Shown piece by piece: positions 14,588 through 17,964 of a DNA stretch of 64,000 nucleotides (its first letter is position 1; every line of letters begins with the position of its first letter). Position numbers and translations under genes: made by a program. The stretch is taken from NCBI GenBank assembly GCA_021799575.1, contig JAJZAD010000001.1, positions 62,001-126,000 of the forward strand. Reading direction: 5' to 3'. The notes beneath the pieces were generated by a model, which saw only the letters and a list, made by a program, of their open reading frames with translations, was not told where the DNA came from and did no database searches. Origin of the DNA: a bacterium (GTDB lineage Bacteria; Patescibacteriota; Saccharimonadia; Saccharimonadales; UBA4665).

Positions 14588-14669
14588 CCAATTTCCTAGT
14601 GCCGGTATGAGCTGTTTTTATCCATCTAGATTATGTGTTGAAAAAAGAGCAAAGAACTTATGTTAAATA

Positions 14670-14698
14670 TTGACAAAAATAGGCTTTAGTGGTATATA
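14670..14698 (+). promoter_or_regulatory. Promoter of the surface-protein gene
   Basis: Consensus -35 TTGACA (14670-14675), 17-bp spacer, -10 TATATA (14693-14698). It predicts a 5' leader of about 420 nt before the ATG at 15127, unlike the leaderless pattern nearby. Confidence 0.65.
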
Positions 14699-14856
14699 TA
14701 TTGTATCCTGACTCGAGGGTAGAGTGAAACGGATAAATCAGACTTTATTATACCGTTGTCCCTAGGAGTGCGGCGTTATTTAACAATTTGGCAACTGTTT
14801 GCAAAAAACAATAGTAAAACTAATGTTTTTAGCAAGCTAGATAGTTATGGGACTTT

Positions 14857-14920
14857 AATTCCTCGCTAGAGCAGTTGGTTCGTGAGCCATAATTCCTCGC
14901 TAGAGCCATCAGTTCGTGAG
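14857..14920 (+). repeat. Two tandem ~31-bp direct repeats in the leader
   Basis: TAATTCCTCGCTAGAGC, then AGTTGGTTCGTGAG (14857-14886), recurs as TAATTCCTCGCTAGAGCCAT then CAGTTCGTGAG (14890-14920). Each can fold CCTCGC against GTGAGG. Two copies only, so this is not a CRISPR array; it is more likely a duplicated RNA or protein-binding element. Confidence 0.6.
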
Positions 14921-14969
14921 GCTTAACCCTGTCCCATTCCGACTACAAAATCAGAAAATAGTTGTTTGC

Positions 14970-15074
14970 ATCCCGATTACGTAATGCTCCTCTTGAGTGA
15001 AGCGTTAAGCCGGTAATATATACTTGCCGCTTTAACGCTTCGCTCAACCTGAGTGAGCCTTCGTCGATCGGGAT
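14970..15074 (+). promoter_or_regulatory. Structured 5' leader, candidate cis-regulatory RNA
   Basis: Outer stem ATCCCGAT/ATCGGGAT (14970-14977 with 15067-15074). Inner 16-bp stem TTGAGTGAAGCGTTAA (14993-15008) pairs with TTAACGCTTCGCTCAA (15032-15047) with one G-U pair. The 3' strand can also fold as GCTCA-ACCTGAG-TGAGC, an alternative that would break the long stem. No U-tract follows. It matches no riboswitch class I can name. Confidence 0.5.
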
Positions 15075-15126
15075 TGGCCATAATCGATCGACGTAAGTCG
15101 CCACCACTATGAGGAGGTGGAAGTTA

Positions 15127-16788
15127 ATGGCTACTAAAGTGAAGAAATGCCTAACGGCCACCTTTACGGTGGTTGTTAGCCTGCTGGGGTTGCTTGGCGC
15201 ATTCAGTGCCATTGCACCATCCGCAACGGCTTCAAGCAGCGGTCCGGTACTTTATCGTCCATTCCCCGAAGGACTACCTTCTGACAACGCCAATCTGGCG
15301 TGGTCAATGATAGTACAACGAGCATCCTGGGATCCAGGATATGCCAACGTGATTGCGTCTCAAACCGGCGCAAAAACGTTTGTGCCTTTGGACTACAAGC
15401 CCAAAGGCTATGCCCCTCAGGCGATTCCAGGGACTACCAACAGCGGAATCACCGCTACCGGCAACATTGTTCCGCTTGCGGACCATGACGGTAGCCAGTA
15501 CGTTCGCGTACTGGAGGTCCTGAACTGGAAGACGATGAAAATCGTTGAATTCATGGTCCGGTGTGGCAATCCACGCCTATATAAGGTAGTACCGATACCT
15601 TGGAAGCCGTTTGCGAAAGGTACCGTTCTTGCCGTCCACAAGACGGTCAATGAGAACATAGTACACGTTTGTCCTTCGGGACAAACGGTGTATGTAGCAA
15701 TGACCACAACCCTCAACGGTATTGTCCACGCAAAAACATGGGGGCAAGTCCAGGGCAACCTAAATTCAAGACTGAAGGCTAGTGTCAACGCAGCTGTAAA
15801 ATCCGAGGCTACAATTACCTGCGGCAAGATCCCTACTAAGGAGGTCGTTCATGTAAAGGTGAAAGTGATTCCAGAGACAGAGACCGTAAAAAAATACAGA
15901 GTAGTAACTCTGTATCATGTGGTTACAATCTCTAGGCACATTACGTGCCCTAGCGGTACGAAGCTAAATGGCGCCGGCAACTGCGTAATTCTAAAGGTTA
16001 CGTGCCCCGCTGGGTTTGTTAAGAACAGCGCCGGCAACTGCGTCGTCAATCAGCAGAGTGCCCAGCAAAACTGCGAGTCCAAGGGAGGAACTTACAACTC
16101 CTCTGACGGCACCTGTACTATAGTTCAGGTCGTCGGCAACTGCTCAACTGTTACCGTAATTAACGGCAATAATGTCGTTATAAACGAAAACACGACAGGC
16201 AATTGCAACTCGTCGCCGACTCCGCCGCCGTCTACCACTCCACCATCGACTACCACCCCACCACCCCCGACGCCGGTATGTTATCTCAACGGAGTAGCTG
16301 AGTATACGTTACCTTCGGGATACCAAGTTCAGAACGGTCAATGTGTACCAATTCCTCCACCACCCCCGACGCCGGTATGTTATCTCAACGGAGTAGCTGA
16401 GTATACGTTACCTTCGGGATACCAAGTTCAGAACGGTCAATGTGTACCAATTCCTCCGCCGCCGACCACTACTACACCTCCCGCTCCGCCGACAGTATCT
16501 TTAAATCAACCGCAACACGCGATTGTTGGCGGCGAGACACAGGCAGTTTGTGCCACGGTTTCTGGGAGGACCGGAGATACATACATGGTAACGTTTAACG
16601 CTGCCTATGGTAGCTTAAATGTTGCCTCTGAGACAGATACGTTGAAGTGGTGTTCTACATACACTTCACCGGGGGAAATACCCAGTAGCGGTGTGGACAC
16701 TATAACAGTGTCTGTCTACGACCAGACAACCGGTCAAGCTGCTCAAGACTCGGTGTCTTTCCCGATCATATCCGCTAATATGCAGTAG
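15127..16788 (+). CDS. Secreted Cys- and Pro/Thr-rich surface protein
   Basis: 553 residues, start set by GAGGAGGT 11 bases upstream. A signal peptide (TATFTVVVSLLGLLGAFSAI, cleavage near ATA-SS) is followed by a globular region, then a Cys-repeat segment (CPSGTKLNGAGNC, CPAGFVKNSAGNC). Next come proline/threonine linkers (PPPSTTPPSTTTPPPPTP), two identical 33-residue units containing CYLNGVAEYTLPSGYQVQNG, and a C-terminal Ig-like domain (PPTVSLNQPQHAIVGGETQA). No sorting signal or C-terminal membrane span is seen. Likely a cell-surface adhesin or filament component. It is produced behind a long structured leader and followed by a sorted surface protein. Confidence 0.75.
   Translation: MATKVKKCLTATFTVVVSLLGLLGAFSAIAPSATASSSGPVLYRPFPEGLPSDNANLAWSMIVQRASWDPGYANVIASQTGAKTFVPLDYKPKGYAPQAIPGTTNSGITATGNIVPLADHDGSQYVRVLEVLNWKTMKIVEFMVRCGNPRLYKVVPIPWKPFAKGTVLAVHKTVNENIVHVCPSGQTVYVAMTTTLNGIVHAKTWGQVQGNLNSRLKASVNAAVKSEATITCGKIPTKEVVHVKVKVIPETETVKKYRVVTLYHVVTISRHITCPSGTKLNGAGNCVILKVTCPAGFVKNSAGNCVVNQQSAQQNCESKGGTYNSSDGTCTIVQVVGNCSTVTVINGNNVVINENTTGNCNSSPTPPPSTTPPSTTTPPPPTPVCYLNGVAEYTLPSGYQVQNGQCVPIPPPPPTPVCYLNGVAEYTLPSGYQVQNGQCVPIPPPPTTTTPPAPPTVSLNQPQHAIVGGETQAVCATVSGRTGDTYMVTFNAAYGSLNVASETDTLKWCSTYTSPGEIPSSGVDTITVSVYDQTTGQAAQDSVSFPIISANMQ
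16261..16458 (+). repeat. Perfect 99-bp tandem duplication inside a surface-protein gene
   Basis: Units 16261-16359 and 16360-16458 read as identical at the DNA level (CCACCCCCGACGCCGGTATG ... CCAATTCCTCC). 99 bp is 33 codons, so copy number can change without breaking the frame. Identity at silent positions points to a recent duplication. Confidence 0.9.
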
Positions 16789-16797
16789 TCGGAAACG

Positions 16798-16833
16798 GGG
16801 TGTCCGTGATTTCGCAAGATTTTGCGGACACCC
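16798..16833 (+). terminator. Strong hairpin after the surface-protein gene
   Basis: GGGGTGTCCG ... CGGACACCCC forms a perfect 10-bp stem just after the stop codon. No U-tract follows, so it may terminate weakly or protect the 3' end. Confidence 0.6.
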
Positions 16834-16840
16834 CACCGGC

Positions 16841-16889
16841 TGCCGGTATCTTCTCTCTAATTAAGAGAGTTTAAAAAGATATCGGCAGC
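16841..16889 (+). terminator. Second hairpin between the two surface-protein genes
   Basis: CTGCCGGTATCTT ... AAGATATCGGCAG with an inner CTCTC-TAATTAA-GAGAG stem. Together with the previous hairpin it may set differential expression or processing of the two genes. Confidence 0.5.
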
Positions 16890-16986
16890 ATTTTCCAAGT
16901 TTGAAGTTCAGTAACTATCTAGTTTGCAAATGGTCTTAAAGTCATTAATCTAATTAAGTAAAGAGTTTAAGGAGAGGAGATCGACT

Positions 16987-17964
16987 ATGAAAAAGAGTCT
17001 ATCCAAATTGGCCTTTGCGGCAACGGGTATCATAACCCTAGCAGCGATGGCTTTCACAGCGCTTCCTGCAATGGCTGATAGCCCAGGACAAATTGCCGGA
17101 GGCCCGATTTACCAAATAAAAAACTTAACTCAAAACACAGCTTTTGCAACCACTGCAACCGCAAACGCATGTGACAATCTGGAATACGCCATACAGCTAG
17201 ATAATCCGGATTACGGTATGTTAAATAACGTAGAAGTCAGTGTTAATTTGCCTTCTACTGTTGGCACTAGTAACGTTTCAACGATGACTGCCAGTTCCTC
17301 AAACGGAAGCCCGTCCACTACCACCGCTTCAGCCACTCTAAATTTAACATCGGCTCAGAGCGTAAGCTATGTTAGCGGCTCGACTAAATTACTAAACAGT
17401 ACGGGTGGACTGATTGAGAATTTGCCTGACGGTATTACCCAGAGCGGTGTTAATATCGGTTCCCTTGCTGGTTCCGCCCTGGAATACATTAACTTTGAAG
17501 TTAAAGTCAGCTGCCCACAGACTCCGCCCGCTCCGGTTTACACTTGTAATTTGTTAAATGTCAGCACTATAGCTGACCGCCAGGTCCAGGCAAACGTGCA
17601 GTATAGTGCCGCCAACGGTGCTACATTCCAGTCTGTTACCTATAACTTTGGTGACAACTCGACAGTAACCGTTGCCAACACCGGTAACGTAACCCACAGT
17701 TACACTAATTACGGCTCTTACAACATTACCGCTTCCGTACTATTTAGTGTGAACGGCAGTAATCAGACCGTAACCAGTGCCAACTGTGCTAAGACAGTCA
17801 GTTTTACAGCTCCGCCTACCACGCCTACTACTCCGTCGCAACTGGTTAATACCGGTCCGGGTAGTGTGGTCGGTATCTTTGCCGGAACGGCCGTACTAGC
17901 TACACTGGCTCACTATCTGTTCCGTCGGCAAATTGCCAAGCGAAGCTTACCCGGTAAGGAATAG
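16987..17964 (+). CDS. Cell-wall sorted surface protein with PKD-like domain
   Basis: 325 residues, start set by GGAGAGGAG nine bases upstream. The signal peptide is KKSLSKLAFAATGIITLAAM, with cleavage near AMA-DS. A DUF11-like N-terminal domain (NLEYAIQLDNPDYGMLNNVE) precedes a PKD-like domain (VTYNFGDNSTVTV ... THSYTNYGSYNITAS). The C-terminus has LVNTGPGS, a membrane span (VVGIFAGTAVLATLAHYLF) and a basic tail RRQIAKR, which is the plan of a sortase substrate with a variant LPXTG motif. No sortase lies in the window. Probably anchored beside the preceding surface protein. Confidence 0.8.
   Translation: MKKSLSKLAFAATGIITLAAMAFTALPAMADSPGQIAGGPIYQIKNLTQNTAFATTATANACDNLEYAIQLDNPDYGMLNNVEVSVNLPSTVGTSNVSTMTASSSNGSPSTTTASATLNLTSAQSVSYVSGSTKLLNSTGGLIENLPDGITQSGVNIGSLAGSALEYINFEVKVSCPQTPPAPVYTCNLLNVSTIADRQVQANVQYSAANGATFQSVTYNFGDNSTVTVANTGNVTHSYTNYGSYNITASVLFSVNGSNQTVTSANCAKTVSFTAPPTTPTTPSQLVNTGPGSVVGIFAGTAVLATLAHYLFRRQIAKRSLPGKE

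Follow-up and report, generated by a model that had tools for sequence, protein, structure and literature searches.

Compensatory base changes point to long-range pairing between the leader and the intercistronic region of a surface-protein operon in Saccharimonadia

Results

Genes A and B and their genomic context

The window, a 64,000-nucleotide stretch of DNA on contig C2 of an 805-kb Saccharimonadales genome, carries two neighbouring genes, here called A and B, which are preceded by a leader of about 422 nt. The features of the locus are as follows.

14670..14704, +: promoter, with the predicted transcript start at about 14705
14705..14831, +: leader 5' domain, with motifs TTTAACAA and GTTTG conserved in the alignment of relatives
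14832..14858, +: 5' strand of helix PA (site5), GCAARCTAGATAGTYAT-GGGN-CTTTAA, the most conserved motif of the leader
14856..14923, +: tandem 34-nt repeat, a duplicated small hairpin in the interval between PA and PB
14938..14946, +: 5' strand of helix PB, TCCGACTAC
14993..15047, +: long leader hairpin, found by complementarity and folding
15062..15093, +: hairpin CGTCGATCG/CGATCGACG, competitor of the outer stem 14969-14977/15067-15074
15101..15120, +: Shine-Dalgarno (SD) region, AGGAGG inside the small hairpin CCACC/GGTGG
15127..16788, +: gene A, secreted or surface protein of 553 aa with a signal peptide at its start
16785..16793, +: 3' strand of PB, GTAGTCGGA, including the TAG stop codon of gene A
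16797..16834, +: intercistronic hairpin 1
16839..16889, +: intercistronic hairpin 2
16901..16927, +: 3' strand of PA (site3), of the reverse complement type to site5, between genes A and B
16987..17964, +: gene B, with a PKD domain and a C-terminal LVNTG (LPxTG-type) anchor

Gene A has no match in Pfam or NCBIfam, and a single-sequence protein search with it against the genome contigs returned none. Positions 16261-16456 of the gene hold a tandem duplication of about 95 nt, the near-identical copies of which encode a CYLNGVAEYTLPSGYQVQNGQCVPI unit. The product of gene B ends in the motif, hydrophobic stretch and basic tail that define an LPxTG anchor, the motif taking the variant form LVNTG in the window, and the same genome encodes a sortase (PF04203); in G146, matches to the LPXTG anchor were weak and below the cut-off. 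An RNase III gene is present. A TraD/VirD4-like ATPase gene lies upstream of the leader, as it does in much of the window's family, and in several relatives (L143, L148, L149, L151 and L154) a gene near the leader has a GSTFGF-type ending, which we take to be sensor-kinase-like. Because the 32-77 nt ahead of gene B show no evident promoter, and because the intercistronic hairpins have no good U-run and thus form no convincing terminator between the two genes, A and B probably share one transcript.

The leader is unusually structured

From the letters alone, the initial annotation had described a structured leader behind a consensus promoter, and its parts are all present. The promoter consists of TTGACA (14670-14675) and TATATA (14693-14698) separated by a 17-nt spacer; our consensus promoter scan required T at the last -10 position, and so did not list it. 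In 28 aligned relatives a TTGACA-like element and an extended -10 are followed by an ATCC-like start at the equivalent position, with the same spacing and start context. This alignment omits G202 and G186 (contig end; no recognisable 5' domain), and it was too poor for RNAalifold, which found zero consensus pairs in the 5' domain. The proposed long stem is present at 14993-15016/15024-15047 (24 nt, 83% complementarity), as are the outer stem ATCCCGAT/ATCGGGAT, its competing hairpin CGTCGATCG/CGATCGACG and the strong ribosome site, AGGAGG ahead of the ATG at 15127. The direct repeats are indeed two in number, although the 31-bp length given for them needs correction to a 34-nt unit at 34-nt spacing, with copies 82% alike. 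Since relatives carry one hairpin at this place, with no duplication even in the closest of them, G008, the repeat is probably a local, recent tandem duplication.

The leader (14709-15160) folds at -154.8 kcal/mol, compared with -114.3 +- 5.0 for 100 shuffled sequences (z -8.06). A DNA search within the genus found one close leader, that of G008, at 70% identity, and diverged leaders ahead of other surface genes. In the 30 genomes that we studied in detail, every leader beats its shuffles over the region from PA/PB to gene A (z -3.4 to -8.9). It had been suggested to ask whether hairpins are kept while sequence changes, and this is what we observe: deep hairpins recur between PB and gene A in 30/30 leaders, with windows of -28.6 to -49.8 kcal/mol in unlike sequences.

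Such structure would be expected of a self-contained regulatory leader, be it a riboswitch, a thermometer or an attenuator, acting on gene A alone, and the SD of gene A often lies within a small hairpin. We nevertheless find this improbable. The accessibility of the SD is the same for gene A as for gene B (0.41 vs 0.40), and SD hairpins are about as frequent (25/29 vs 23/29; n=29, with G436 left out and the start codon of gene A uncertain in G203 and G436). We accordingly rejected the idea that gene A is distinguished by a hairpin sequestering its SD, gene B being no different. Nor did Rfam offer a match: at gathering thresholds only tRNA was found in the whole window and in eight relatives, and a relaxed search of 14600-15150 gave two matches, both far below threshold, so that a known Rfam riboswitch was rejected as well. 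Above all, the strongest conservation in the leader involves a partner between genes A and B, as described below.

Group II introns and HEARO RNAs, too, are RNAs of several helices with an open reading frame in a loop, and gene A might on that pattern be the internal reading frame of an intron-like or ribozyme element. The same Rfam searches of the window and eight relatives found no intron of group I or group II, nor anything else besides tRNA, the product of gene A opens with a signal peptide and belongs to none of the known maturase or nuclease families, and the locus has no interrupted exon, all of which leaves this reading with only a very slight probability.

A conserved leader motif has its complement beyond gene A

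Site5, the leader segment with the strongest conservation, recurs in reverse-complement form between genes A and B as site3, and together the two would form a helix, PA, of about 17+6 bp. A pattern search across the order found the site5 motif in 22/392 genomes, and none with the reversed-pattern control; in 21 of these 22, the two copies share a contig and flank gene A. Further searches brought the number of genomes with both sites on one contig to 32, from four families (f1, f34, f36 and f43) and two orders, f43 (G590) representing a different order of the same class. Records with the core motif (22 stretches) are labelled Candidatus Saccharibacteria, Saccharimonadia or Saccharimonadales in all but two cases, and the core pattern had 0 matches in viral contigs. 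Several genomes stand outside these counts: G192, in which the sites are split over contigs L146 and L180 and which enters no pair count; G287, where gene B lies at the contig start; G050, G317 and G498, whose single matches are partnerless in the DNA examined; and other single matches with one or two mismatches, apart from G033, which was retrieved via gene B.

In the 30 main genomes the layout and the orientation of gene A are constant. Site5 and site3 are 1,445-2,303 nt apart, and site3 lies 49-299 nt past the stop codon of gene A, with gene B starting 32-77 nt further on. These genomes were retrieved by core searches, which inflates the conservation of the core and leaves the direction of differences unaffected; G590 was found with a looser core.

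Differences between the PA strands follow the sense RNA

An inverted pair of sites flanking a variable gene at a distance of 1.4-2.3 kb invites another explanation, namely DNA inverted repeats that serve as recombination sites and invert or exchange a gene A cassette, as in phase variation. This was our initial reading of the inverted copies. The core, ACTA-GA-TAGT, is partly palindromic, and G045 carries a resolvase-like gene downstream. At that locus (L044:11605-13213), a tRNA and an opposite-strand ORF, the latter presumably resolvase-like, lie directly downstream of gene B in an arrangement that resembles an integrated element. We abandoned the reading on the direction of the differences between the copies. 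Among 736 cells in 32 genomes, 33 transitions keep G-U pairing in the sense RNA and 2, in G033 and G590, are incompatible with it, next to 11 transversions; the first 30 genomes gave a tally of 30 to 0, which became 32 to 1 with G033 and 33 to 2 with G590. DNA repeats predict no such bias, and the one-directional G-U differences therefore point to pairing in the sense RNA. In addition, gene A has a single orientation in the assemblies of 30/30 genomes, and covariation extends to PB, whose two strands are distinct from those of PA. We now consider DNA inversion very unlikely.

Covariation supports the pairing in its own right. Native PA partners leave 11/690 cells unpaired, compared with 29.4 +- 1.9 when partners are permuted (0/20,000 permutations as few); with one genome per genus the numbers are 7 and 18.8 (0/20,000). 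Permutation inside single families (6 genus representatives each) matched the native count in 158, 192 and 995 of 20,000 cases, and thus a good part of the test's power lies between families. Counted over 26 distinct rows, 98.2% of cells are paired, and 8 pairs, in 23 cells, have changed on both sides (0/500 shuffles as high), while the count of pair types is no higher than expected by chance (259/500 shuffles). Shifting the strands by 1-3 columns lowers pairing to 30-44%. The sequences are related by descent, so the shuffles overstate significance, and double changes in separate lineages provide the sturdier argument. These include CTAGGTAG, present on both strands in G186, G403 and G418 (families f36 and f34), as well as CGAA in G220 and G445, CCTCAA in G072, CTTTGA in G027 and ATCAAG in G590.

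Eight of the 23 PA pairs are invariant. The core is thus stricter in sequence than pairing needs, in part owing to selection by the search pattern, and since its conservation exceeds what pairing alone would require, a bound protein or a second partner of the core is a likely candidate.

A second helix, PB, is nested within the first

Helix PB, of about 8-10 bp, would lie within PA, so that the two form one nested stem enclosing gene A. Its 5' strand, CCGACTAC or a variant of it, follows the small hairpin of the leader, and its 3' strand, GTAGTCGG or the matching variant, follows gene A. Variants changed on both sides are TCAACTAC/GTAGTTGA in much of f34, CACCAATTACTAC/GTAGTAATTGGTG in G229, GCTCACTC/GAGTGAGC in G310 and TTGATACC/GGTATCAA in G590; G403 is, with G229, G310 and G590, a further example of a PB that has turned over. 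Across leaders and intercistronic regions, the best ungapped complementarity is 840.8 for native partners, compared with 747.5 +- 23.7 for swapped ones (4/20,000 as good; per genus, 0/20,000). The best match is the PB motif in 18/30 genomes, the other PB sequence in G310 and something else in 11/30; in G033, too, the best matches differ from the PB motif. RNAduplex on long segments also favoured native partners (30/20,000 as good, 8/20,000 per genus), but this version is noisy and we take the PB statistic from the ungapped test.

Folding models are consistent with both helices. When a linker connects the window's leader to its intercistronic region, the probability of each helix is near 1. With gene A kept, in folds of the whole transcript from its start to gene B, the mean probability of PA is 0.79-0.998 in 30/30 genomes and that of PB in the window is 0.97-1.0, values from nearest-neighbour folding, which treats the closing cost of a 1.5-2 kb loop poorly.

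Folded by itself, the window's leader pairs the PA strand locally, and this raises a variant of the model in which the pairing is conditional. The PA strand would pair in alternation with site3 and with GTTTGY, a 5'-domain motif about 31-40 nt upstream of it, GTAGTCGG would likewise pair now with the leader and now with a CCGRCTGC arm close by, and the whole would act as a switch or timer for transcription or translation of B after A. Complementarity of PA to the 5' domain is 444.8, compared with 408.2 +- 12.0 for shuffled sequences (2/300 as high), GTTTG occurs in 22/28 5' domains, competing arms are present in the intercistronic sequences, and alternation would explain why the sequence of PA is conserved beyond the needs of pairing. 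Against this, taken one by one, only 3/28 genomes have p of 0.05 or less, the position of the best local match is not constant among genomes, and we found neither a ligand nor a clear terminator nor a match in Rfam. We regard the conditional form as rather unlikely.

Gene A varies more than the RNA around it, and some operons lack the element

Gene A is similar in 61/435 protein pairs and gene B in 378/435 (BLAST), and by this measure the RNA element appears better conserved than the gene that it encloses. Among the results of a profile search with gene B, we examined eight related gene B loci beyond the set of pairs. One of them, G033, has both halves of the element with a diverged core. The other seven, L223 (G006:C41), L225 (G072:C2), L222, L224, L226, L227 and L228, are A-B pairs with short spacers in which the element was not found; G006 and G072 each carry one operon with it and one without. 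The element is therefore an option of this operon type and not a universal need.

Discussion

In this study, we examined a leader for which RNA-level control of a surface protein had been proposed. One part of that proposal stands: a conserved element does lie upstream of a surface gene, and we infer that control acts on the RNA. The other part, a leader sufficient to itself, is incomplete: the key partner, that of the leader's best conserved segment, lies past the end of gene A, and the unit would comprise the leader, gene A and the intercistronic region, also involving gene B. That the leader and the region between A and B are two halves of one cis-acting bipartite RNA element, which we call the clasp, is well supported by comparison of genomes: both helices are conserved by compensatory change, and PA also by G-U changes compatible with the sense strand only. 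We consider it very probable that the pairing exists.

The model that we favour is as follows. Transcription would start from the promoter at 14670 and proceed through A and B. PA and the nested PB would join the two halves, with gene A held in the loop. The message of gene A would thereby become a closed unit with base-paired ends, leaving the AU-rich start site of gene B just outside. The double-stranded clasp may be cleaved, with RNase III a candidate, or may be protective, and either could set the lifetimes of A and B and the ratio between them. As PB spans or follows the stop codon of gene A, terminating ribosomes could open it, coupling translation of A to the state of the clasp. We have moderate confidence that the transcript is divided into an A unit and a B unit with altered decay or processing. 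That cleavage or protection at the clasp sets separate lifetimes and the A:B ratio is plausible, though we would put it somewhat short of probable, and with lower confidence we suggest that the clasp is switchable through local alternatives for both strands. The explanation as a whole, pairing and mechanism together, seems to us slightly more probable than its opposite.

The clasp belongs with long-range cis pairing in mRNA, a known phenomenon that in bacteria is represented mostly by single cases. In the IF3-L35-L20 operon of E. coli, distant segments of one polycistronic mRNA pair in a pseudoknot through which a cistron is controlled by ribosomal protein L20; its span is far shorter than that of the clasp, for which we know of no L20-like protein. 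In rRNA processing, complementary flanks enclose more than 1 kb and the stems are cut by RNase III. The flank pairing of the clasp is similar, except that it encloses a coding gene. The closest published case that we found is the icaR mRNA of Staphylococcus aureus, in which the 5'-UTR and 3'-UTR pair in cis and the duplex is a substrate of RNase III (PMC3868564). In icaR the SD region is paired by a single short motif, UCCCCUG, and the partner of the leader is a 3'-UTR (PMC3868564). The likeness is that the leader of the clasp also pairs downstream of the same gene, by the computed PA and PB. The differences are that the clasp has two nested helices and an intercistronic partner, leaves out the SD of gene A, and has been retained across families as genes change. 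In the window, PA (14832-14858) and PB (14938-14946) lie at least 165 nt upstream of the SD near 15112. Gene-sized folding units, like that of the clasp, are also a feature of the ORF-centred structure of operon mRNAs, which is reported as a general tendency (eLife, PMC5318159), whereas the clasp has specific, conserved boundary helices. A literature search of open-licence papers returned no description of the element. We know of no counterpart to this architecture elsewhere.

Altogether, covariation provides evolutionary evidence, drawn from several families and two orders, for pairing of a leader with a site on the far side of an entire gene, and makes the clasp a testable system for the folding and division of polycistronic mRNAs. 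We raise, as a tentative and on balance unlikely extension, that the clasp represents a new bipartite class of cis-acting RNA that senses whether transcription and translation of the enclosed gene run to completion and sets the fate of both cistrons. If so, halves that meet across 1.4-2.3 kb would form one compact RNA domain, and an RNA that is kept while the protein is freely replaced could serve episymbiotic bacteria as a standard socket into which variable surface proteins are fitted. The hosts of the clasp are tiny parasitic bacteria, and the element offers a handle on surface-protein control in Patescibacteria, in which regulation has been little studied. Given that pairing has been kept despite changes of letters, the clasp probably matters for expression of two neighbouring surface genes.
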